64,000 bases of DNA. Origin: Lineus longissimus. Its lineage: Eukaryota; Nemertea; Pilidiophora; Heteronemertea; Lineidae. Shown here piece by piece: positions 4,532-40,415 of this stretch. The DNA lies in contig NC_088317.1 in assembly GCF_910592395.1 (NCBI RefSeq), forward strand, positions 13,950,001 through 14,014,000, in the 5' to 3' direction. The notes beneath the pieces are model-generated. The model was not told the origin of the DNA, did no database searches, and saw only the letters and a list, made by a program, of their open reading frames with translations. Numbering within the stretch: the stretch's first letter is position 1; every line of letters begins with the position of its first letter. A program made the translations under genes and the position numbers.

Positions 4532-5617
4532 TGCGGCCCTGCCCTGTACCTGTCGAAAGAGAGATAAAGGTTCTTCCGAGTATTTACCACTGACCCTGTA
4601 TAAAGCCCTTTCACTGTGGCCCTGTGTTGTGTATCAACTCTTTAGGGTTGATAACTATTCTAATTTATGAGTAGATGGGCACACACAACGATATGGGTAG
4701 GTCTTCTGTTAGCTCTTGCTTAAAATTTTTCACATCTTGCATTGAGACTTTTTGTTACGTACCAAAATTGAATATGCAAGTCGGACTTTGCATTATTCAA
4801 TTGGTTAATTTAATTTTTGCGCCAAAATGTCTAGAAGTGCAAATCTAACGCATTAAATATTTTTCTGAATAATGGCATACTACCTTATGCTGCATGTCCT
4901 CAATATTAATTTGGTGAATTTCGATAAAATGCAATCGCAAACATCTGAGTAGCCTAAAAAAATGCTGACCGGACTTTCGTCCCCAAAACGACATTCGCTT
5001 CAGGTGATTCGATGCAGGATTGCATGAGCGGTGCGTTTATAGTTCCACGGCATAATTATTTGTCATACCAAAAAAATGACTCGCAGTATATTACACTCTC
5101 TTTGGCTCAGGGACGTTACTAAAGAAAACGGGATATCCGCGATCTTTATAAACTGAACTTCTTCAATAGCAAATTCGTCGGGTACATAAACAGCGTTTCG
5201 ATTGGACAGGCGTTACCAATAGGTATTCGACTGAAATTTGTCATATTGATTAAAACATTGTGGAGAGTCATTGTGTAAATACATGCAATTGTCTTCAGTA
5301 CTTTTTGCACAAGAGCCAGTCAATGTTCAGGAAATGGCCAAGATCACAGTCACGAATATCTGTTAGAGACAGATACAGTAAATTTCGACTTGTAGTTTAT
5401 TTTTTGTCTGAAACTTAAACTATAAAAGATAGATTCATAAATTTTAAGGGAAAAACCCAAATTATATTTTGTATCCATGTTCTCTAATGTGCGAGAAATG
5501 TTGAAGTTCCCGTAAAGGAGGGGGCGGGTTTTCGGTTACCAGATAAATGTAAAGAATAAGATCAAAATTGTTCGGAGCATTTTTTGGCCCCTCTAATTTC
5601 ATCCTGATTATAAAAAT
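4532..5617. other. Upstream flank of the secreted gene, no gene seen
   Basis: AT-rich non-coding sequence upstream of the signal-peptide exon. It presumably holds that gene's promoter, but I see no clear TATA box or conserved element and no ORF with coding character. Confidence 0.5.
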
Positions 5618-7890
5618 TAGACAGCCTCTCATTCTGGTCCTGTTTCAAGCCTATGGAGGGAGATGAGATACTGAGAATATTAGCCACCCTCTCATTCTGG
5701 TCCTGTCCCGAGTCTATGGAGGGAGATTACAGATTCTGAGAATATATAGCCATCCTCTCATTCTGGTCCTGCCCCGCGCCTATGGAGGGAGATCAGATAC
5801 TAAGAATACTAGCCAGACTCTCATTATGGTCCTGTCCCGAGTCTATGGAGGGAGATTATAGATACGGAGAATATCAGCCACCCTCACATTCTGGTCTTGT
5901 CTCAAACCTGTGGATGGAGATTAGATACTGATAATATTTGCCATCCTCTCATTCTGGTCCTGTCCCGAGCCTATAGAGGGAGATAAGATACTAAGAATAT
6001 TATATAGCCAGACTCTCATTCTAGTCCTGTCCCGAGGCTATGGAGGGAGATTAGATACTGAGAATATTAGCCACCCTCTCATTCTGGCCTGTCCCGAGTC
6101 TATGGAGGGAGATTATAGATTCTGAGAATATTAGCCATCCTCTCATTCTGGTCTTGTCCCGAGTCTATGGAGGGAGATTTGATACTGAGAATATTAGCCA
6201 CCCTCTCATCCTGGCCTGTCCCGAGTCTATGGAGGGAGATTATCGATTCTGAAAATATTAGCCATCCTCTCATTATGGTCTTGTCCTGAGCCTATTGAAA
6301 GAACATTAGCTATCATCTCATTCTGGTCCTGCCCCGAGCCTACAGAGGGAGATTAGATACTGAGAATATTAGCCAACCTCTCATTCTGGTCTTGTCCTGA
6401 ACCTATGGAGGGTGATTAGATACTGAAAATATTAAACCAGATTCTCATTCTGGTCCTGTCCTGAACCTATGGAGGGAGATTAAATACTGAGAATATTAGC
6501 CACCATCTTATTCTGGTCTTGTCTTGAACCAATAGAGAGAGATAAGATACTAAGAATATTAGCCAGACTCTCATTATGGTCCTTTCACGAACATATGGAG
6601 GGAGATTAGATACTGAGAATATTAGCCATAATCTCATTCTGGGCCTGTCTTGAGCCAATGGAGGGAGATTATAGATACGGAGAATATTAGCCACCCTCTC
6701 ATTCTGGTCCTGTCCCGAGTCTATGAAGGGAGATTAGATACTGAGAATATTATCAGCCTCTCATTCTGGTCCTGTCTTGAGTCTATGGAAAGAGATAAGA
6801 TACTGATAATTTTTGCCTTTCTCTCACTCCTGTCCTGTCCAAAACCTATGGAGGGAGATTAGATACTGAGAATACTAGCCATCCTCTCATTCTGGTCCTG
6901 TCTTGAGCCAATGGAGGGAGATTATAGATACGGAGAATATTAGCCACCCTCTCATTCTGGTCCTGTTCCGAGTCTATGGAGGGATATTATAGATACGGAG
7001 AATATTTGCCATCCTATCATTTTGGTCCTGTCCTGAGTCTATGAAGGGAGATTAGATACTGAGAATATTATCAGCCTCTCATTCTGGTCCTGTCTTGAGT
7101 CTATGGAAGGAGATAAGATACTGATAATTTTTGCCTTTCTCTCACTCCTGTCCTGTCCAAAAACTTATGGAGGGAGATTAGATACTGAGAATACTAGCCA
7201 TCCTCTCTTTCTGGTCTTGTCCTGAGCCTATGGAGGGAGATTAGATACTGAGAATATTAGCCAGCCTCTCATTTTGGTCTTGTCCTGAGCTAATGAAGGG
7301 AAATTAGATACTGAGAATATTAGCCATCCTCTCATTCTGGTCTTGTCCTGAGCTAATGGAGGGAGATTAGATACTGAGAATATTAGCCACCCTCTCATTC
7401 TCGTCTTGCCCTGAGCCAATGCAGGGAGATTAGATACTGAGAATATTAGCCAGCCTCTGATTTTGGTCTTGTCACGAGCTAATGGAGGGAGATTAGATAC
7501 TGAGAATATTAGCCATCCTCTCATTCTGGTCCTGTCCTGAGCTAATGGAGGGTGATTAGATACTGAGAATATTAGCCATCCTCTCGTTCTGGTCCTGTCC
7601 TGACCATATGAAGGAAGATTAGATACTGATAATTTTTGCCGTCCTCTCATTCTGCTCCTGTCCAAAACCTATGGAGGGAGATTAGATACTGAGAATATTA
7701 GCCAGCCTCTCATTTTGGTCTTGTCCTGAAGCTATGGAGGGAGATAAACACAAAGAGATAAACACTGCATGAGAACGTAATGGCCATCCTCTGATTATCA
7801 TCCTGTACTGATCGAGACTATGGAAGGAGATAACACACTGAGCTGGGAATATTAGCCATCTCCGCATTTTCCTGAACATATAAATGGAGG
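5618..7890. repeat. 63-bp minisatellite, about 35 units
   Basis: Head-to-tail units carrying CTCTCATTCTGGTCCTGTC, then GGAGGGAGATTAGATACTG, then AGAATATTAGCCA. Consecutive TAGCC positions at 7258, 7321 and 7384 give a period of 63. Units differ by scattered substitutions and short indels; the last units (7740-7880) are strongly diverged. Because 63 is a multiple of three, long open frames with 21-residue repeats appear by chance on the minus strand. These are not genes. Confidence 0.95.
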
Positions 7891-10049
7891 TTGATTATGT
7901 GATTGTAACTGTAACTGCGTTGTCTTTTTGCTCTACAGGAACTAAAAAAGAACATTTTCGTGGGCGGTGAAAATACAAAACTCGGCACATTTGATTAAGT
8001 TTTGATTCAAATTCGAATCGAAAAGAAGCATCGAATTTGCAGACGTTCCGGAATCCGATTTTCATGACTCCACTTCAGTAATGCTCTCCGGGAAAGAGCA
8101 CGATTTTCAGTTCTGCACAAGGAATTTCTACTGATCACAAAAAATTGTCACACTATGATTTTATCCCAGAAATTCTAGATCTCAAAACGTCGCTGGTTAG
8201 ACTTTTTTAGATATACTACACTAACTGTTGGTGCGTCATTTTCTTCATAGCCCACCCGATATACTATTTAGTAGTGACTCGTTTTTTATAGCCCACCGGA
8301 TATACACAATTCTTTTGCATCGTATGATGTGAACGCACCCGAGTACAGTTGTTAATTTCAGAGCGCGATTCTGCGTTCCCCGAGGTTTTAACCTGATGAT
8401 GTGGGAAATTAGCTGATACAACATTTTTATTCTCGCGATATTTTTTTCACAATAATCAGGGGAAAATAACCTTTGAAAGTGAGCCTAATAGGGCTTTACT
8501 TGTCACACTGTACGGGATGTGACATTGTAAAAAAAAATTTTTTTTAATCGACACCCCATGCACAGCTGTACCCACGCGTTTGCAAAATGGACCTTCAACT
8601 TACAAATCCCCCCAGAATTCTTAATGAAAATAGCAATTCAGAGGCATAGCGACCACCGAAAGAAAGATATCTCTTGATGCAAAACTTTATTGCCTTGACC
8701 CAAGTCGTGCAATTTGTCATCAGTGCAATGAAAAGTATAGAGTGTGCTGATGGAATCAGTGTTTGGCAATATGATATCATTTTTCATTGAGACCATTTAC
8801 GTGTGGTTTTGCAAGATGTTTGACCTAGTGATAAACATGGTCGTATTGCAGATATTGTAAAAGCAAGCGCGATAAAACTTAGCATGTACTTTATTTTTTA
8901 CAAATGATATTCTGTGTCCTACATGCAATCACAGTTAACATGCATGTTCTGTATATATTTACAAATTAATTGGTCATTTACTTATTTTAAATTTTGAACT
9001 AACAAAATAGGCCCATAAATCAAGTTCTCATGCCCTCCTTTTTTGCTGCCCTACCTTTTTTTACTCCTTGATTTATCCTTTGTGAGGAGTTACTCTATAA
9101 AATACATGGATGAAGAATATAGATATCCGCGGTCAGGAGTCACTAGATTGTTCACCGCACTGTGGTGGATACACCTGGCCCCTCCTTCACAATATTAATG
9201 ACCAGCCTCTATATAATTGTATCTCATTACCGGCGAGGGCCTATCGATCTCAGGTATGTACACAAACATTCGTCATCAGTGGGTTTAGGTTATCATATTG
9301 ACATGACGCCGAGTGAAATTGAAGAGATAAGAAATACAGTTTAGACAATTGCATCCAGAGGAGGGGCGGGGGGGGGGGGGGGGGTCGTTCCTGATAATCG
9401 AAAATAAAAATTCATAGAAATGGCGCCAAAAAGCAAAAATTTCGACCCCTATGATGCTGATGCTCTTCAAAATCGCATCTAAATTCAAGTTTTTTAAAAA
9501 CATTTTGGGGGAAACGCCGTCCTGCTTATTGCTGAGCTGCTTGGAAATCGCACATACGGCCTTCTTAGTTTCCTCTTGGGGAGCCCCAACCGTGCGAAAA
9601 GTCCTGGATCCGCGCCTCTATTTGTTTTTACATGCAACACGAGTTGGATAAAATAATGTAGTTCAGGCTAGGCAATTATAAACCGCTCAGACGAGCCTGT
9701 GAAAGTGATAAGCTCTCGACGGATTTTAACCACTTGCGATTTGGAAAGACATCGGTTGCGGTGGGCAGTCTTGTTACTCGTCGCCACCAGTCGACCAGGG
9801 ACGCGTGCGTTGCACCGTGCATTGTGGCATGCGTGGCAGACGATTGTGAAAGACCAGGCCTTTGTATCGAACGAACTATGTTTCATGGCGAGCAACAACT
9901 AGTTTCAACTACACAACTGGTGTCTTATCGATTTTTTTTACCCAAACTAAAGTACCAATTAAATGCAGATGCTGCACCTATATGGTCATATTTGATACGT
10001 GCAAAGGTATGTTTGTGATCGAGGACCTTTTTTGCAGCCCTTTATTTGG
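7891..10049. other. Gene-poor spacer with a 17-G tract
   Basis: About 2.1 kb without a supportable gene. Uninterrupted G lies at 9368-9384, a likely slippage and assembly-error site. Two related short segments containing ATAGCCCACC-GGATATAC lie near 8250-8315. The short ORFs here have no recognisable content. Confidence 0.5.
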
Positions 10050-10435
10050 CATTCAGTTGCCTCTGTTTAATTGGGTTGTAAGGTCTATCCGCGTCCGCCG
10101 GTTATTATCCACTTTGGCATTCAGCGGCCTGTTTGATAAAATTGGGTTGCAAGGTGTGAAGGTGTAAGATGTCTATCCTTTATTGTCCACTTTGGCATTC
10201 AGCGGCCTGTTTGATAGTATTGGGTTTAAGGTGTGAAAGGGGATCGAAGGCTGTCCGCTTTAAGATGTCTATCTTTATTGTCAACTTTGGCAGGCATTCA
10301 GCGGCCAGTTTGATAGAATGGGTCGCGAGCTGTTGAAGGGAAAGGCTGCCCGCTTTAAGATGACCATCCTTTATTGTCCATTTTAGCATTCAGTGGCCTG
10401 TTTGAAAGAATTGGGTTGTAAGGGGTCAAACGCAA
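10050..10435 (+). repeat. Diverged copies of the 91-bp satellite
   Basis: About four degenerate units with the core CACTTTGGCATTCAGCGGCC and the later CCGCTTTAAGATG-CCATC block. They match the tighter array at 11565-12535, from which they are separated by an inverted-repeat insertion and about 0.6 kb of other sequence. Confidence 0.8.
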
Positions 10436-10647
10436 CGTCTGTCCACTGTGCCAAAGGACGTCTCGAACAACGTTTTTGCATCCCATCACTTGCGTGCCAA
10501 AAGACCACGATCGACGTTTTTTTTAGTTTATATTCCTACCACGAGGTGTCTCGCCAATCATTGGTTCTCTGAACTCTGGCAGACGATAATTTGGCGCCAG
10601 GTGCATTGTGGGATGACGTCATCAATAACGGAGGCAAGAAGAGGTAA

Positions 10648-11124
10648 CGAAATAAGGCCCCATAAAAAATCACTAGTTTATCATCCCGCGCGCATGACGA
10701 AATCGGCCCGGATCAAAAAAAATAATTTTTTTTTAAATATGTTTTTTGTTGAATTTCACCGACGGCGTTACAGTATTTCGTTAGCAGACGTCCTGTGATA
10801 TCCAAAATGCTATTAGTTTTTATATATAGGCTAGAATACTAAGCCTACTTCGTAGCCCGGTAGCAGACACTGCCCTCCCGTCCCTCATATTCCACTGCGC
10901 AATGCCACACGCACGTCCATTCCCGCCAAGGCTTCCCGCGTAAATGATATCGCGAGGCCTAGCTCGCTGACGATCGACGATACCAAGAGGGGATTCTCCA
11001 TATGATGGTTGAATGTACTGTATGTTGCGGCTAAAAAATGAAATAAAATGAAAGCGCCCTCCCTCGTCACTTTTGTCTGATGGAAAGGATGATAAAATAA
11101 TGACTATTTTATGGGGCCTTATTA
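10648..11124. mobile_element. Inverted-repeat element (AATAAGGCCCCATAAAA ends)
   Basis: AATAAGGCCCCATAAAA near 10650 is repeated in inverted orientation near 11105-11124. The two ends bound about 475 bp with no transposase, which fits a non-autonomous MITE-like element. The short ORFs inside show no family signature. The target duplication was not resolved. Confidence 0.5.
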
Positions 11125-11564
11125 AGTTGACTGCAGAGGAAGTAGCTGAAATTTGTGCCGATTCAGCCTGTGCCAATGCCGATGCCGATGCCCCCCAGGC
11201 AGGCTCTCAGGTGGCTACAAGGTCCACACAAGGGCTATGTTTCCTGCTAGTGCTGGGAAAAAGCATAAACAGAAGAAATGTAGTTTGTCAAAAAAGAGAA
11301 AATAGGCGCGATTCGCGATACTTTTGCACAAAGGGCAAAGTTCCCCTCTGTCCTGGTGAGTGTTTCAATGTTTACCATTGAGAAAGAAAGTATTACTGAA
11401 TTGTAATTGGAAGGGGTAGCAGCTAGAGACAAAGAAGATAAAATATGTTTCATGGATATAGCTTGTTTAATTCTATTTCAATTTTATTTTACAAAGTCCG
11501 TCATAATACAACAATATCTGGCACTCTAGGGTATCATTTCAAAATTATATCTGGCACTGAAAGA

Positions 11565-12535
11565 GTTGTTCCTTTATTGTCAATTTTGGCATTCAGTGGC
11601 CTGTTTGAAAGAATTGGTCGTAAGGCTAAAAGCGGAAGCCTGCCCGCTTTAAGATGTCCATCTTTTGTTGTCCACTTTGGCATTCAGTGGCCTGTTTGAA
11701 AGAATTGGTCGTAAGGCTAAAAGCGGAAGCCTGCCCGCTTTAAGATGTCCATCTTTTGTTGTCCACTTTGGCATTCAGTGGCCTGTTTGAAAGAATTGGT
11801 CGTAAGGCTAAAAGCGGAAGCCTGCCCGCTTTAAGATGTCCATCTTTTGTTGTTCACTTTGGCATTCAGTGGCCTGTTTGAAAGAATTGGTCGTAAGGCT
11901 AAAAGCGGAAGCCTGCCCGCTTTAAGATGTCCATCTTTTGTTGTTCACTTTGGCATTCAGTGGCCTGTTTGAAAGAATTGGTCGTAAGGCTAAAAGCGGA
12001 AGCCTGCCCGCTTTAAGATGTCCATCCTTTATTGTCCACTTTGGCATTGAGCGGCCTGTTTGAAAGAATTGGTCGTAAGGCTAAAAGCGGAAGCCTGCCC
12101 GCTTTAAGATGTCCATCCTTTATTGTCCACTTTGGCATTGAGCGGCCAGTTTAAGAGAATTTGGGTGAACGGTGTAAAAGTTGAAGTTGGTCCGCTATAT
12201 GTAAGATGTCCATCCTTTATTGTCCACTTTGGCATTCAGCGGCCAATTTAAGAGAATTTGGGTGAACGGTTTAAAAGTTGAAGTTGGTCCGCTATGCCCA
12301 TCCTTTTTTTGTTCTTTTTGGCATTGAGCGGCCAGTTTAAGAGAATTTGGGTGAACGGTGTAAAAGTTGAAGTTGGTCCGCTATATGTAAGATGTCCATC
12401 CTTTATAGTCCACTTTGGCATTGAGCGGCCAGTTTAAGAGAATTTGGGTGAACGGTGTAAAAGTTGAAGTTGGTCCGCTATATGTAAGATGTCCATCCTT
12501 TATTGTTCACTTTGGCATTTAGTGGCTTGGTGTAA
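11565..12535 (+). repeat. 91-bp satellite array, two subfamilies
   Basis: TGCCCGC starts at 11641, 11732, 11823, 11914, 12005 and 12096, giving a strict 91-bp period with nearly identical units. From about 12130 the units switch to a second form (CAGTTTAAGAGAATTTGGG, then GTTGAAGTTGGTCCGC) of about the same length. The two forms share the block around CACTTTGGCATT. The homogeneity of the first form suggests recent amplification. Confidence 0.95.
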
Positions 12536-13875: not shown

Positions 13876-14326
13876 CCAAACCCAAATTTTCGCCAATGGT
13901 GGAGAATCTTCTCGGCTATTGAATGACGTGATAGTTGATATCAGGACCAATTGCATAACAAAGTTATTACATAATTTTGAGAGGCATCTATTTTTCACTT
14001 TTTGGTTGATGGATTTTTTTAAATCTCAAAATTTTCAGAATCTCAAAATTTTGATATTTTGATATATCATGAAAAGTAAGTGATATTTTCAAAAACTTTC
14101 TTCACAGAAAGTCTTAGCATTGTTATCTGTATGATGCAAGATTTATACTTCTCAAAATTATGTAATAACTTTGTTATGCAATTGGTCCTGATATCAACTA
14201 TCACGTCATTCGATAGCCAAGAAGATTCTCCACCATTGGCGAAAATTTGGGTTCAATAGGATAAGCCGTTTTTGAGAAAATGTGCAAAATCTAGTGTCCA
14301 TAAACTTTTGACCATGAGTGTACATG
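13876..14326. mobile_element. Foldback element, Tc1/mariner-like right end
   Basis: Two arms of about 105 bp (13,876-13,983 and 14,155-14,254) are inverted copies with few mismatches; both contain CACCATTGGCGAAAATTTGG on the appropriate strand. Outside the right arm is a further terminal segment ending GACCATGAGTGTA, typical in style of TA-inserting Tc1/mariner ends. The matching outer left segment is missing. There is no coding capacity. Confidence 0.75.
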
Positions 14327-14372: not shown

Positions 14373-17300
14373 TCATGAAGATATATGGCGCGGTATGAAA
14401 GTGATAGCCATAGAATCAGCATCAAGGCCAGCATACGCAAACCGACAGAGTATTCTCTGAATTGGCAGAAAGGAAATCGAGCCTCCGAACTCAAAACGTT
14501 TACAACACCATATCTGACATGCTTGACTGATTTGCTCCTTGTTCTCGGATTCTCTGTACCATGACACAGCAGCAAAGTAATGTTGCTTTCGGATTCCATT
14601 CAAAGTAACAGCATGAGAAAAGTAGAAGTTCACTCTACATGGTCTGAATTGAACTGAACCATCATCAGTATGCACCCACGCAGCAACAACTCGAGCAGAT
14701 CTCAATGTCCTGTTTTCCATTTTAGAGCCATACCTTTCCCCAGCAATGTATAATGATCCAAATTTCTGGACAACTTCACTCGATGTAATACTTTCGCCTG
14801 TTGCTTCAATATTTGGATACATCTGCTGGTACACAAGATTGATCATGGGAATTTCCTCTTCCAATGAAAGAGTTGAATATTTACAGCCTGATGGAAATTT
14901 GAACACTTCATAATCCAGCCAATCAATAGAAGAATTTGCATTATTCCTGGCAAATTGTAAATTCAAAATGTTGCCAACATGGATTCTTGGCAAGTTTTTC
15001 TTTCTTTGTGGATCAAAAAAATTCGCAAATTCATCTCTGGCCATGTTGGGTAACTGAACACCTTGTGTGCATCGAAGCACATTAATCTTTCTCATGAATT
15101 GGATTTCTACACACCTGTTATTGTGAGTAAAGTTTCCGAGGTACCCATTGTATCTCTCAAAAGGAAAACACCAGAAAGACGGCATTGGACCAAAATCTAC
15201 TAAACACTCCTTAAGATGACAATGAAGATGCATATTTGGTGTGATGAATTCAGTACCATAAAGTTCTTGCACCTTCTTACAAAAATTAAGAAGAAGGAGG
15301 TCAGCCTTTAAGATTTCACGGTGTGAAACTGTTGGTCCTGACAATAATTTACATGCAAGTACAAATTTTTCCCAGCAACGAAAATGAGTTTCACCTAGTT
15401 GGTCATGTAAAGCATACAACGAAAACACAGTGGTCCAGTTTTTCCATTCAGCTGCAGTATAGCTACCATAATTTGATGATATTTTGGATGGTACTCTACC
15501 TATATCCGATGGAACTGTGACTGCACTGATACGGTCGACTATAGTGCTCAGTTTATCTTTGTCCAATAAACCCTCCTCAACCCACTTTTTGAACATACGT
15601 TTTGCAGTTCCTAAAAACAAATTGTGCATGCCATCTACCACAGAGAACCTCACAGCATCAAAATACTCTAGCTCAATGAGAACGCTGTAATAAGTACCAT
15701 ACTGCCGGGAAAGGTTGTTGAATTGTGTGACAGTTTTACTATTTTTAACTAACCGAGCATATCTGTTGTGCAAAACTTTCGTACGGACAGGCCAGGTTTG
15801 CCTATCAAAGCCACTATAATCTCTCTTCACACCAAAACCACCAGGAAAGGTTTTGTAACATCTGTTGCAACCCTTTTCACCCGCATGACCCTTAAATCCG
15901 GAAGCTTTTCTTGCAGCTGGAATATCAGCTACCACGGCAAGAAGAGCTGCCCGGTACAAAAGTGGAAAGGATGATGATGAGGTTTGAAGTCTAACCCCCC
16001 TCCAAAGTACCTGAAGTTCTCTCACCATGGGTTCAAAGAAATACTTTAGTGATGCAGGTTCTTTATCTAGAGCGGGAATTATACCTGCTACAATTACATT
16101 TTCCATCTTAAAGCGTATATCTCTAGGCAAGTTCATTATTACAAAATATATAGCACCAACAGAGTAATCTGACCTATTGTCAAAAGGTTGGAACCAATCG
16201 ATGTTCATCATCAGTCCCAAGTTTCTGCTATTACACAAGAATGGCTCACCATTATATGATTGGAATTCCTTCCATATAGCACCATCGTATACATCACGAT
16301 AATACCTTTTCTTCTACCGGGGTGTTAAAATCAACATGATTCTTCCATTCATCGCAAAGATCTGGAATTCCATTCCTCTGAAGAATGCGTTCAATATCAT
16401 TGATAATGCTTTTAAAACAAAATACCTTAATCGGATAAAATCTCACCCGACCCAACTTTGTTAATACTTTTTTAACGAGAGGAGAATTACAAATTTTACC
16501 TTGTCCCCTACCACCAAATACCTTGTTGTTGCAGAGTTTCCCCTTTTCAATACCACTGACAACTTCAGTGCACCTGTCAGGTGCATACAGCATTGTGCAT
16601 TTCGGACATACAACATACCGAGTAAAATCATCCCTGTCAATCTCTGCTAATTGTCGCAACATATACATGCTAGTTGGGAAAAGAACAGCGAATTCTGACA
16701 GATACCGGTGATCTACATTACAGCCAATGAAACTGAACAACTGGAAGTGGAATTGCAACAGCCATTCAACCGCATTGTCACTTACATTTACAGATGCCTG
16801 CCAGTATAAAATAAAGTATACAACATAGAATAATAGTGTGTTCACAAATTCACATTTTGATTTTCTCGTGCCAGTGTTATTTGCAGGTAGAATTCGGAAA
16901 TCTTCAAGCTCCTCATCTGAATCCTCCACGACTTCCTCGTCTTCCGATTCGGATAAACCTTCGTCCTGCTCGCATCGGTCGTCTTCACCAGCAGTACTTG
17001 AAACCTCGTCAACATCTTCATCACTGACAAATTCCATAAAGTCGTCATGATCCTACAAGATACAAACATCTCAATTAAGCTTACTGCCTTGCATGCTATC
17101 TTCAGTTTTCGTAATGGGAACGGGAATTAACTATTGGTTGAAGCAAATCAAGAGCCAAAATTAGTATGTCACACTAATCTATTTCTGTCAACATGCACAG
17201 GAACTCAAGTCAAGACTCTACTTAACTGTTGGGGAGAATTTGATTGCTGTTATGTGTTACCATGGAAAATAGGTCAATGTCAAAATGTTTCTACCTTGTA

Positions 17301-18743: not shown

Positions 18744-19112
18744 CAGTCCTGATCATATTAATATCAACACCTACTTCATATGATATTTCGCAAACTAATG
18801 GACAAAATTCAATGCGGTTTTCAGCATTATCAGATATTTTGTTTTCTAATCATGCATTACCAGTATGGATGTGATTGCATCAGTTATTCATTCTCCAATC
18901 GGCCATTTAAAATAGTTTTTTTGTAAGGGTTTTTTAAATGGCAAAATGAAAAACAAACTTATGTAATCACTAAATCAGTCACATTCCTGCTAGAATGTGC
19001 GATGAAACAACAAAATTTCTGATAATATGGTGAAAACCGCATTGAATTTTGTCCATTAGTTTGCGAAATATCGTGTGAAGTAGGTGTTGATATTGCCATA
19101 TGATCAGGACTG
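18744..19112. mobile_element. Foldback MITE with CAGTCCTGATCATAT ends
   Basis: The left arm (18,744-18,835) and right arm (19,005-19,112) are inverted copies over about 95 bp, sharing TTTCGCAAACTAATGGAC and AATTCAATGCGGTTTTCA. TA precedes the left end as in Tc1/mariner-type insertion; the right flank no longer matches. It ends 31 bp beyond the stop of the kinase gene, so it lies in that gene's 3' region. Confidence 0.85.
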
Positions 19113-19143: not shown

Positions 19144-20598
19144 TTAATTTGATAAAAGCATGGCACTCAATATAGAATCAAGTCTTCTCAAAAGAACCAC
19201 TGTAGTTGGCCTGCCAGATGGTAAATAGTCTTTACATTCCTTCGCCAAATCTCGAAATTGTTGAACGTCCCGTGCATACCCAACACTTTTCAGGATCCTC
19301 CCAAATGAATATACATCAGTAGCAGGGCACTGCTTTGAGTTTGGCACGTTCGTCAACTCATGAGCCAAATGCCGGAATCTTAAATTGCGTTGTTTTTGGT
19401 CTTGACTTCCTGGCACAACGTTATACACAACCGGATTATCCACAGGTGTAGCCTTCCCAAAATCAATGATTTTGGGGGAAATTCCCTTCCGAAAAGAATA
19501 GCGAGCAACAAGCACATTGTTTTCTTTCAGATCATTGTGGAGAATATTCTTGCTGTGCATGAAGTCTATACCGCTCATAAGGTCATTAAAGAAACTGACC
19601 CAGCACTCTACATCAATGCTCATATTCTTCATATTTGAGTAAACAGTTTCAGAAATATAAGTAGAATCACCATGAGTACCAACAAACTCCATCACAATAG
19701 ATTTAGTGTCAAGAATCCCGTAAATAAATAGAAAGGACGGATGTTGACATAACAACTGCATGATCTGCGCTTCTTGGATCAGCTTGGAGCCATTCGCTTC
19801 TTTTAAAGTTTTAACGGCAACAACTGTGTCCAAAAAGATCATCTTCCCAAGATGCACTGACCCAAATGTCCCCGCCCCAAGAAAAACGCGATCATTATTC
19901 TCCTGCAGGACATCAGCCACAACTGCGCTGGATAGCTGTGTTGTCACTGGAAGTGAACCAAAAAACCTGTTTCTGTTTGAACAAGAAGGAAGCAAGATTG
20001 TTTTTCTGCTTGCTTTTGACAACTGTGGTGTTGAGGTTTGTTTAAAAGACTGAGGTGGCTTCAGTCGTGTCAACAACTGCGTCCTGAGGCCGTTTATCTT
20101 TCTCTTTGAATCGACCACTTGTATCCTTAAAGAAGCCACTTCCTCAGCTTTCTCTTTCTCGTGCTGTTCAGCTTTAAGTTTTTTCAATGCCTTTTTCTTC
20201 TTAAGCTTTTCTTTCAATGCTTTCCTGTGCTTTTTTTTCACTAAATCTGATCGTACATGTTTTGAGTCCTTTGAAGACATCATTTCTACAGGTAGCATCT
20301 CCTGTGAAATAAACAGTATGATCTACCAGTAATATTTTACAAATATATCCCACCGTTTCAAAAATTATTACACAATTATCATTATCATCAAAACACTTAA
20401 GAAGAGTAACTTACAGACTGTTAGTTATACTTACACCAAAATAATCTGGCTTCTTAATCAAATCAACCGCGCTTTTCTCAGGTGCAGGGACTATTCACAT
20501 TGTACTGCATTGAACAAAGTATATATCAAGTGTAGGCTAATTGACCAACCTTTTGTTTCAACTTTTGTTTCACCAGCTGGGACTTCTTCAATTTTCAT
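19144..20598 (-). CDS. Protein kinase with basic coiled-coil N-terminus
   Basis: The main exon, 20301-19144, carries a Lys/Glu-rich coiled coil (first ~90 residues) and a kinase domain: glycine loop GAGTFGSVHLG, VAVK lysine, alpha-C glutamate in LIQEAQ, catalytic HNDLKENN (Asn instead of the usual Arg of HRD), DFG in IIDFGKA, and TDVYSFG. The full catalytic set suggests an active kinase; HND and the overall form resemble tyrosine-kinase-like or Tyr kinases. Two short upstream exons (20598-20550 starting ATG, 20490-20435 with a GTAAGT donor) fit in phase, giving about 420 residues, but the first donor (GTTGGT) is weak. It lies upstream of the CACTA transposase on the same strand. Whether it is a host gene or transposon cargo cannot be decided here. 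Confidence 0.75.
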
Positions 20599-35085: not shown

Positions 35086-35328
35086 TGGAGGTCTGCGCCG
35101 TTCGTTAAATATTTGAAATTTTGTAACTGAATCTGAAAATTTCAAATTGTGTAAATAATTTGTGTACTGAATATAAATTTCAACAATATGCTGTAGACAG
35201 ATATACAAAGACTATAAAAACAAAGTTTCAACAAATTCGTATGCATAATAACTGCTCTACTGCATTGTGTATATCTGCTTTTCTATTTTCCGTGACCACC
35301 AGTAATTACGAACGGCGTACTACTTTAA
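35086..35328. mobile_element. Family-A TTAA MITE, diverged copy
   Basis: Carries CTGCGCCGTTCGTTAAA at the left and CAGTAATTACGAACGGCGTA at the right, with the internal GTAGACAGAT and AATAACTGC-CTAC blocks of the family found in the RASA introns. Its terminal TTTAA coincides with the TTAA that starts the next element. Confidence 0.7.
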
Positions 35329-35559
35329 AGGAATTGGCCAAAGGACGTGTTTTTTTTTACTTTTACATGTATCTCTTTTAAGTCATAATCTTAAAATAAT
35401 AAAACAAAATAAATTCATTTCAATCGCCAATTTTTTCCTAAAAGTGTTTTTTGAAAAGCGCGCCCTCGAAAAAACTTTCATTTCCCACTTCCCCAGGAAT
35501 TCACTGATGACGTCACAAAAGGAAATCCTTGGGAGCTCCCCGCCAAAACATAAACGAAC

Positions 35560-37004
35560 ATGGCGGACTCTCACGAACTTTCATCTTCTTCTTCATCATC
35601 TTCATTGTCATCGAACGATTCCTCTGACATGTTTGATGGGGATTTCTCTGATGAGGAAAGTGATGTGGATGGATATGGCATCGCACCTGTTTTTGGATTA
35701 TATCCTTACATGTTCGAGCCAGTGTGTGATAGCGACGAGCAGGCTATGATGGAGGCAGAAGAAGATGAGTTGGAGGATGCAAAAAAGCTCGAAGATTTGA
35801 GTTCCTGGTGCGTGATTAGTGAAATGATCTGTGCCTGTCTGACATAGTTTTCTTTTTCGGGTGAAATAGAGCAGCAAGCTGATGATGCCTGGTTTCTGCG
35901 AGTTTTATCAACAGTAACACCTAGGCCTAGGCCTCAATTTTCATGATATTGTGTAGGGCCTAGGAGAAGAAATATGTATAGGCCTACATCTGCATCATTG
36001 TACATATAGCCTACATCTACATCATTGTACATGTCGTATCTTATTACCATGTCACATCATGTGTTAAGTGATTTATCACATCACAAAAATCACATTGATG
36101 AAGCCTGAAGGGGAATTGCTAACCATGCAGACCATCCATGGCTAGCAGGCAAGACTATAGAAGTATAGTCAAGTAGTACTATAAGCTAGCGGTATGCGCA
36201 ATAGATCAACAGGTCAAATGAAAAACAAGACACGTTGAGGTTTACCATTAACACTGATAATATTTGATTTTTTTGGTTTATCAATTGTCACAATGAATGT
36301 TATCATATTTCACTTATTTTCAGGTGTCAGTGTGGCAACTGTGCCATAATGGAAACAGCCAGAGAGTGTGTGTGCTGCTGTGGGGTGAAGCAGGTGCAGG
36401 CAAAGCTTGACGATCCAGCTTTGGCAGGGGCCCATTTAGGGTGTGTTACCGACCACCCAGGTTTGGAAGGGATTTGCTACAACATTTGGACACTGGAGGT
36501 AGCGGCAATGGCCTACAAACAGCGGTATGGGTCCATCAAAATCAAAGGGCCAGCTAATGAGTGAGTTGATTCTTTTTTAACAGTCAGTTCTGTATGACTC
36601 ACTTTACCAATCACATGCTGGCAACTTTACCAATCCCATTCCCAGGTTTGCCCTTACTCTCCCAGTCCAGTCTCAGGCAATCTTCCTGAAACACAAGAAA
36701 AGGTTCTGCCTAATTTATGTTATCCATGTAATGATTGATACATAGTTGAAGCCCTACTACTAGACAGCAATTAGTGAATATAATTGTAATAGTATTTCCT
36801 GATCTCCATGCATTACAAAGTATGTTTCTTTATATTTTCAGGAAATATCGCTTTGTGGCATACCGCCAATTCGTCAGGTGGTGCTGGGATTACCTTGGAA
36901 GGGAGGTCAGGGTGGTGATCCCGTCCTGCATGATGATCAAAATTCGTGAAGCATTCCCGTCTACAGCTTGCTACAAGGGTTTCAAGCTTGCTGGCGAGGA
37001 TTGA
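35560..37004 (+). CDS. P2X7-receptor cytoplasmic (ballast) domain-like protein
   Basis: Exons 35560-35807, 36324-36560 and 36842-37004 splice in frame to 215 residues. The N-terminus is serine-rich, then acidic (Ser run, DGDFSDEESDVD). The rest matches the intracellular C-terminal domain of vertebrate P2X7 receptors: WCQCGNC with a following CVCCC cluster, GCVTDHPGLEGICYN, then YRFVAYRQFVRWCWDYLG and VVIPSCMMIKIREAFP. These Cys/His positions coordinate zinc in the P2X7 ballast fold. No membrane segment or P2X channel domain is present, so this is the soluble domain alone. All splice sites are consensus and no stop interrupts it. It lies within a TTAA-bordered element, so it may be transposon-encoded. 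Confidence 0.85.
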
Positions 37005-37035
37005 ACATTGTTCGATTTGAAACTCTCTTACCTTG

Positions 37036-37917
37036 CTCTGGGACATTGAAACGCCTGTAGTATTTCGCAATGGCCTCTTCCTTGGTTGGGCGTATAAATT
37101 GTGAGGACAGTGGTGGTGGCACCTCTATTTCATCAACTTCAGTGGAGAACTTGGCTGGGTCATTGATAACGTCATCATAGTGTTTTCATCAGAGACATAA
37201 CATAACCTGAAGTAAATTGACCAACTTATTTTATTCGTCCATTCCTGCAGGGTTATGTTAAATATTGTAAATAGTCATCAGCTTTACCGGTATATAGATT
37301 ATTGAACAAAGGTTAATTTTTTCAACAGATGTTAATTTTGTCTTATATTTTTGCCTTCTCATTTTCAGACTGATTGCGGCATATTTACCATTACCATATG
37401 TGTCTTGCACTTTCTTCCTTTGAATGCTGTAGCCGCCCTTCCTGTTTTTTTACTTTGGAAAGGTTATTGTGCATGTCTCATGCCCAGTCTTGGTTGTACT
37501 AGCAAGTGACCTATTACTGTTTTCGTTAAATGGAGAGCTGCGAGTGCTAGCCTGTAAGAAAATTCAAATTGTCAGGTCAATAGGTCTATTTAACCTTTTG
37601 GTCCTGGGTGGTGGGGGTTGGGGGCGGGGGTGAGGGGCAGTAAGGAGCAGTAAGGAGAAATGCATTACCCTCCCCTCATATCTAGTTTGCAGACACATTT
37701 TATACTCCATGCCATATAGTTGTTGAAGCAAGTTTCCCTGAAATGTTCGCTGCAAATTTGCGAACTTTGTATCGGCCCTGTCCAGGCAGCTCGAGTTCGA
37801 CTGACGAAACGTTTCCAAGCATTTTTGGTGGGCAGATCGTCGGGAAAATTTGTGAAGGCTCCTCACATTGGGCTCAGAAGCCTTGCCGCAACCGAAGACG
37901 GCGCATTCATTGACCAT
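37036..37917 (-). pseudogene. THAP-domain gene, frameshifted
   Basis: The start MVNECAVFGCG gives the first cysteine pair of a THAP zinc finger, followed by NVRSLHKF. The frame then shifts by one at a T-run near 37,843. The shifted frame supplies the Trp and the closing ICSEHF of the C2CH motif, then ETCFNNY and KCVCKL. A downstream block (about 37,370-37,560, after a TTACAG acceptor) is Ser/Thr-rich and then basic, with another shift. A further open block, 37,180-37,036, is acidic and ends at a GTAAGA donor. THAP domains bind DNA and are common in transposases. No catalytic domain follows because the P2X7-like gene begins on the other strand. One-base assembly errors could mimic these breaks. 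Confidence 0.65.
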
Positions 37918-38352
37918 TTTTATAGATTTTTCAACTTGAAATTGGCGCCGCGGAGATCAGAGTGGCAAATGTCCGACATTTTCCTTTTGTGACGTCACGC
38001 GCGTCACGGGAGCACTATCTCATTTTACGTAGCGTTTTGGAAGAATGCTCTGCAGATGGCACTTGTAAGTCGGATTATTTCAAAACGCTTCATTGGATTG
38101 AAAAACGGATGACATTTTATTGTTAAGCATATAATCTTTATTAATTACGTACATCAAAATAATCAAACATGATTGCCATTGGCCAATTCCTTTAAGACCT
38201 AGGCCGCTGTGATCCTAAAGTTCCTAGTTTATGCCGGATCATGGTGTAGTGTTTATTATGCTCAACCGTTGTTTTAAACCTTCCATGTCAATGTTTTAAC
38301 ACCATGTTAGTTTCATAAATACCGTCTAGCTCCTCAACACCTACTGGAAATT

Positions 38353-39909: not shown

Positions 39910-40415
39910 CGGCAGCATTTTAGTGCCACTAAAGAAGAAAAAAAGAACAAATTTCTCATAATAACGACTTTTAATCTCGTAATAACGACTTTTAATCTCG
40001 TAATAACGATCTTCTCTTCGTTATAACGACTTTTAATCTCGTAATAACGACTTTATTTTTCGTTATAACGACTTTTAATCTCGTAATAACGACTTTTGAT
40101 AATAAAGTCGTTATTTAATCTCGTGATAACGACTTTTGATAATAAAGTCGTTATAACGAGATTAAAAGTCGTTATAACGAGATTAAAAGTCGTTATAACG
40201 AGAAAGAAAGTCGTTATTACGAGATTAAAAGTCGTTGTAACCAGAAAGAAAGTCGTTATTACGAGGTTAAAAGTCGTTATTATGAGAAAGAAAGTCGTTA
40301 TTACGAGATTAAAAGTCGTTATCATGAGAAAGGAAGTCGTTATTACGAGATTAAAAGTCGTTATTACGAGAATTTTTTCTTTTTTTTCTTCTTTAGTGGC
40401 ACTAAAATGCTGCCG
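39910..40415. mobile_element. Foldback element with a 21-bp palindromic satellite core
   Basis: The ends are CGGCAGCATTTTAGTGCCAC and its exact inverse, continuing as a near-perfect inverted repeat of about 35 bp, with TA on each side (39908-39909, 40416-40417). The interior is built entirely of 21-bp units of the type TCGTAATAACGACTTTTAATC: plus-oriented in the left third, inverted in the right two-thirds. Many units themselves contain the palindrome TCGTTATAACGA. No gene is present. Confidence 0.95.

Follow-up and report, generated by a model that had tools for sequence, protein, structure and literature searches.

A TTAA-flanked element carrying a P2X7-ballast gene in the nemertean Lineus longissimus is very probably a non-autonomous, internally deleted Kolobok transposon

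In the genome of Lineus longissimus, a gene for a protein that resembles the cytoplasmic ballast domain of the P2X7 receptor lies between short inverted repeats bordered by TTAA, which raises the question of whether this is a host gene that transposon ends happen to flank or a gene of the transposon itself. The window, by which we mean the whole 64-kb stretch of DNA analyzed, contains the element at 35329–38191 (2,863 bp; Table 1), and its perfect 13-bp inverted ends (AGGAATTGGCCAA) with TTAA on either side proved to be exactly as given in a preliminary description of this DNA. A second inverted pair (TGACGTCACAAAAGGAAA, perfect over 18 bp) is nested some 180–195 bp inward of each end, with one arm upstream of the start of each of the two genes. 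Inverted repeats of at least 17 bases are frequent in the window (311 pairs listed, mostly within tandem arrays), so an inverted pair is not decisive by itself; what makes these ends credible beyond chance is that the same ends recur next to TTAA at other loci. The long tandem arrays lie at 5616–7745 (63-bp), 11573–12526 (91-bp), and 39954–40372 (21/42-bp units), the last being an inverted pair of arrays. In the account of Kojima and Bao (2022; PMC9587614), TTAA is the target of Kolobok transposons and their termini follow a 5′-RR...YY-3′ rule. The termini AG...CT of the window element, and those of three longer relatives described below (L037, L038, and L041), conform to this rule, and TTAA flanks both sides of these four elements as well as of a copy on C14 and a 1.0-kb copy on C12. 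Lineus is listed for KolobokP in the same source; a long terminal direct repeat, which together with a His-Me nuclease is a KolobokP feature, was not found in 35200–38320, where the longest direct repeat is 24 nt.

Table 1. Coordinates of the features of the element within the 64-kb window.
Feature	Positions	Strand	Basis
Left TTAA target site	35325..35328	.	read from sequence
Left terminal inverted repeat AGGAATTGGCCAA	35329..35341	+	repeat search
Left subterminal inverted repeat TGACGTCACAAAAGGAAA	35508..35525	+	18/18 complementary
KolX (P2X7-ballast) exon 1	35560..35807	+	gene model, public protein
KolX exon 2, first ballast cysteines CQCGNC...CVCC	36324..36560	+	gene model, Pfam, public protein
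KolX exon 3 with stop, YRFVAYRQFVRWCW...VIPSC	36842..37004	+	gene model, Pfam, public protein
Kolobok transposase, probable last-exon remnant, tail-to-tail with KolX, whose end it overlaps	36985..37185	-	profile, tblastn
THAP domain, N-terminal part of a Kolobok transposase, frame-broken	37668..37917	-	PF05485, frame reading
Right subterminal inverted repeat	37980..37997	-	pairs with TGACGTCACAAAAGGAAA at 35508-35525
Right terminal inverted repeat	38179..38191	-	exact reverse complement of 35329-35341
Right TTAA target site	38192..38195	.	read from sequence

The three plus-strand exons, joined across GT..AG introns, encode a product of 215 aa that is identical to the public protein 'P2X purinoceptor 7-like' of Lineus longissimus and is matched by the Pfam family P2RX7_C (E 7.4e-13), which bears out the intact three-exon P2X7-like gene reported earlier. 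Moreover, a profile of seven relatives (A1) matched the PDB chains of P2X7 (E 2.6e-13, best at residues 466–594), where the C-terminal ballast of the receptor is the homologous domain; unlike the receptor, the window protein has no channel part and is coded inside a transposon. From the literature only, zebrafish Nanor also has a homologous domain. An AlphaFold model of the protein was unsuccessful, with a mean pLDDT of 40.6. The Kol0 Koloboks (Kolobok-1_XT type) described by Kojima and Bao (2022; PMC9587614) resemble the window element in their TTAA target, their 5′-RR ends, and their two genes, a transposase and KolX, the latter with the P2X7-ballast fold. The conserved ballast cysteines that mark the Kol0 lineage are kept in the window protein, and the plus-strand gene would be KolX, which encodes an accessory protein folded like the P2X7 cytoplasmic ballast. 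Compared across three element families, KolX shows pS of 0.78–0.84 and pN of 0.20–0.44 (106–110 codons; dS saturated), and this far greater synonymous than amino-acid change points to its retention as a working protein among the elements of this genome. Within the window element's own family, exon 3 differs at 2 synonymous and 7 non-synonymous positions over 53 codons and is without visible constraint, so the intact KolX frame in the window need not mean present function.

The minus-strand gene is in a different condition. PF05485 (THAP) matches one minus-strand frame piece (E 2.6e-6) and the domain is split across two frames, in agreement with the convergent, broken THAP gene that had been described. 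Against a profile built from six last exons from other transposases of Lineus, the second minus-strand piece of Table 1 ranks first of 2142 window ORFs of at least 20 aa (E 0.009; next 1.7), and by tblastn it matches L050 (E 4.9e-4) where such an exon would be expected. It is probably a remnant of the last exon of a Kolobok transposase, the match being weak by sequence alone. No DDE-core match was found between the two pieces when the window was searched with pieces of transposase, in line with the earlier remark that no catalytic DDE domain could be recognized in the element. In a control, core, D2, E, and end pieces matched nothing in the window or in L015–L027 (90,649 bases in total; L015 is the window locus itself). 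A protein search with the THAP and C-terminal pieces gave no matches. With THAP at one end, the C-terminal remnant at the other, and no core between them, the element reads as an internal-deletion derivative, and since a DDE transposase is missing from the window copy, which sets it apart from Kol0 elements of the Kolobok-1_XT type, we class it only as a non-autonomous derivative. The gene itself would be a Kolobok transposase that has lost its DDE core and of which only the THAP start and, probably, the last exon are left.

We searched the genome (391,118,348 bases in 30 contigs) with the DNA of the element and obtained at least 16 matches, the window itself counted; the number of AGGAATTGGCCAA ends rests on this whole-element search. 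The C14 copy is 8.1 kb long and has both ends perfect; portions of KolX and the C-terminal remnant on the minus strand are still present in it, but the THAP part is missing. The 1.0-kb C12 copy, whose right end is intact and left end shortened, retains THAP together with a portion of KolX exon 1, and on C9 there is a stub about 60 bp long (element positions 1–67). The same ends therefore do recur at other TTAA sites, as the preliminary description had proposed to check. A second left end on C12 carries one mismatch and shares its flank with the C14 copy, so it is not independent. L011 was dropped as an independent insertion, with 463 bp of its left flank 95% common to L009. Five match rows cover only KolX exon 3 and its edge (C11, C20, C10:10.14M, C7, and C1). 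The AGGAATTGGCCAA family is small, scattered, diverged, and variously deleted. No full-length autonomous copy with AGGAATTGGCCAA ends was present among the matches listed in the whole-genome DNA search, and the viral contigs searched held no relative. A candidate for a longer member on C9 was rejected, as it has an end of its own, ATACCTATGATTAT after TTAA, which sits at the internal TTAA of the stub: a Kolobok of another family, with AGACCTA ends, is nested there (L012, about 4899–4958). The C14 copy shares the C-terminal remnant, and the transposase ORFs of C9 match nothing in this copy, which suggests that the core deletion may be older than the spread of the window and C14 copies.

On its left, the element is abutted by a high-copy repeat of about 235 bp (35091–35328). 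A search with this flank listed 43 matches, two repeat families together, and in all seven of the copies fetched, which were chosen for reaching or nearly reaching the end of the repeat, similarity stops at TTAA or at most 2 bases away. Read in reverse, the end of these copies is TTAA followed by AGGAGTACGCC, or close to it, and resembles the AGGRR ends of Kolobok MITEs. The left-flank matches yielded no true empty site; their pattern is one of abutting elements. Elsewhere in the window, a long minus-strand ORF with Transposase_21 (14373–17052; PF02992, E 2.5e-18) lies about 2 kb from a protein-kinase ORF on the same strand (19144–20322; PF00069, E 7.2e-21), and inverted-repeat pairs occur near the two ORFs at 13879–14253 and 18760–19094. 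The kinase may be cargo of a CACTA-like element.

How many copies of KolX there are bears directly on whether it belongs to the host. Searched against the whole genome, the window protein gave at least 150 matches on 19 contigs with E values no higher than 1e-6 (150 scored of 280 candidate places); when rows on one strand and less than 3 kb apart were merged, at least about 139 loci remained. A single-copy P2X7-like gene, which would have spoken against a transposon gene, is thus not what this genome holds.

Are these genes accompanied by transposase elsewhere? On C9, KolX stands opposite a minus-strand gene that begins with a THAP part and carries motifs of the DDE type, and a DNA search with this transposase gave 21 matches at 17 loci; three copies match C9 at 97–98% identity across a 1.7-kb length of transposase DNA, and further relatives at 68–81%. 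When 13 of the 17 loci were examined by tblastn, KolX was clear on the opposite strand at five (L037, L038, C9, L041, and L043), weak at L046, and not seen in the stretches fetched at seven (L036, L039, L040, L042, L044, L045, and L047). The KolX protein search places it tail-to-tail with the transposase just beyond the stretches fetched at L040 and L047 (6.9 and 6.0 kb off), and finds it near two C16 loci outside the 13. By that separate search, 8 of the 17 loci have KolX within 8 kb, tail-to-tail in every case; random placing would give about 0.0015 KolX per transposase locus, with the proviso that insertions derived from a single element are not independent of each other. L043, on C5, is a ninth clear locus by tblastn and L046 a weak tenth, so the 17 comprise nine clear, one weak, one more with KolX tail-to-tail at 12.7 kb (C16:10.39M), and six without. 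Neither search found KolX within 8 kb at 7 of the 17; at C15:6.85M it is 10.9 kb away on the same strand as the transposase, and none occurs within 15 kb at both C17 loci, C20, C15:0.59M, and C1:13.85M. Conversely, loci picked by ballast match alone (L048–L051) have convergent transposase pieces in four of four, which brings the tail-to-tail arrangement to 13 loci and one weak.

Particularly, THAP, DDE-region pieces, and KolX are found together in L037, L038, C9, and L041, and a THAP piece lies upstream of the core in these four and in L044. L037, L038, and L041 (about 6.8, 7.0, and 6.7 kb) are complete in outline: their inverted ends (AGACCTATGATTAT or similar; 0, 1, and 3 mismatches over 14 positions) are flanked by TTAA and enclose KolX and a convergent THAP-DDE transposase. 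Paired TTAA ends were found at these 3 of the 13 transposase loci searched and at none of L048–L051, where the stretches fetched may be too short. Whether longer copies add a transposase, as the preliminary description had asked, is answered positively for longer relatives, but those whose ends were found have AGACCTA ends and not AGGAATTGGCCAA. The transposases adjoining KolX show GDxRxDSxGHxAKYGSY and DIWH stretches. Their core pieces were located by tblastn, and the D, D, and E residues, assigned by eye, are those we take to be catalytic; DIWH in the C9 relative, also read by eye and a candidate for the C/DxxH motif between the second D and E, is absent from the window copy with the core. 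The first-D region is common to six aligned public proteins (of eight public relatives, P0013 and P0016 were left out of the alignment), and P0013 departs from the first-D motif. One of six proteins scanned nears PF20700, a Mutator-like transposase family (E 4.7e-6; 26.2 bits, cut-off 26.5), and a Pfam scan of the C9 transposase ORF itself gave no match. Adjoining the THAP end of the C9 Kolobok is a retroelement with long ORFs, presumably DIRS-like (L013, reverse complement, about 7593–11800).

These data leave little room for the view that the window gene belongs to the host and was captured or bordered by transposon ends, its association with THAP being accidental. That view can point to the intact reading frame, annotated as a cellular gene, and to Rump (2020; PMC7016195), who presents ballast-only proteins as host genes with ancestral synteny; it does not accommodate the abundance of KolX, the tail-to-tail transposase at 13 loci and one weak (including all four chosen by KolX), or the presence of both genes inside three further elements with TTAA-flanked ends. 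We regard it as disfavored already and very improbable. The idea, advanced from the sequence in the preliminary description, that standalone P2X7-ballast proteins spread as transposon genes is upheld by the same numbers, transposase linkage, and TTAA-ended relatives. Nor does a piggyBac-type element fare better, despite its TTAA target and the KolX-like protein of a few piggyBac families: the ends 5′-AG...CT-3′ fit the Kolobok rule, a THAP domain is present, the transposases adjoining KolX have the two stretches named above, and the conserved cysteines are kept here while the piggyBac versions lack most of them, as Kojima and Bao (PMC9587614) report. We give this reading an equally slight chance.

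With the THAP and probable last-exon pieces of a transposase and no DDE core between them, we conclude, with a probability of roughly 0.93, that the element is a non-autonomous, internally deleted, KolX-bearing (Kol0-type) Kolobok of Lineus longissimus, presumably moved in trans into TTAA. Its transposase would have been supplied by a copy with matching ends, possibly since lost, so that mobilization would have been by cut-and-paste through a Kolobok transposase not found with AGGAATTGGCCAA ends. KolX may act as an accessory factor of transposition, zinc-bound and perhaps within the transposition complex. Compatible with this explanation, and naming the partner, is a proposal that the AGACCTA families still in the genome are the mobilizer; they look young, given the three copies nearly identical to C9, but their terminal sequences share little with those of the window element past the first two bases and their KolX is only about 39% identical to its own, and we find the proposal unlikely.

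Among known systems, the Xenopus T2-MITE/XKol elements (PMC6004289) are similar in their TTAA target, in AGGRR ends (AGGAA in the window element), and in a THAP plus DDE transposase with non-autonomous derivatives; the main text of that paper mentions neither 'KolX' nor 'P2X', whereas the window element has KolX. According to Kojima and Bao (2022; PMC9587614), Kolobok families include the ballast-like proteins found in diverse animals, and P2X7 originated when a P2X4-like gene fused with KolX. Two further papers that touch on these subjects, PMC9319628 and PMC12346879, seem unrelated. The earlier suggestion about the origin of standalone ballast proteins and of the P2X7 tail is accordingly correct in essence, though already published; our analysis addressed the transposon origin of the worm genes. 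What the present data add is an example from a nemertean, the number of copies, and an element in which the accessory gene has survived the loss of its transposase. Rump (2020; PMC7016195) described an ancestral synteny of ballast genes with two markers from sponge to sea urchin, and one Ixodes ORF that joins ballast to a domain printed 'TAHP', which we read as THAP. It is conceivable, though we would not favor it at present, that this synteny reflects KolX and its tail-to-tail Kolobok transposase travelling together and not host synteny, and that KolX may persist or spread without a transposase of its own by aiding or regulating transposition in trans.

The examples of Kol0 hosts named by Kojima and Bao (PMC9587614) are vertebrates, annelids, cnidarians, and sponges, and our results support the view that standalone P2X7-ballast proteins are transposon genes in a phylum outside those examples. 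One genome can hold far more ballast genes than the 'one or a few (<10)' per species given by Rump (2020; PMC7016195), and invertebrate annotations of 'P2X purinoceptor 7-like' can be transposon proteins. Young families, such as those with AGACCTA ends, make the role of KolX in transposition testable.
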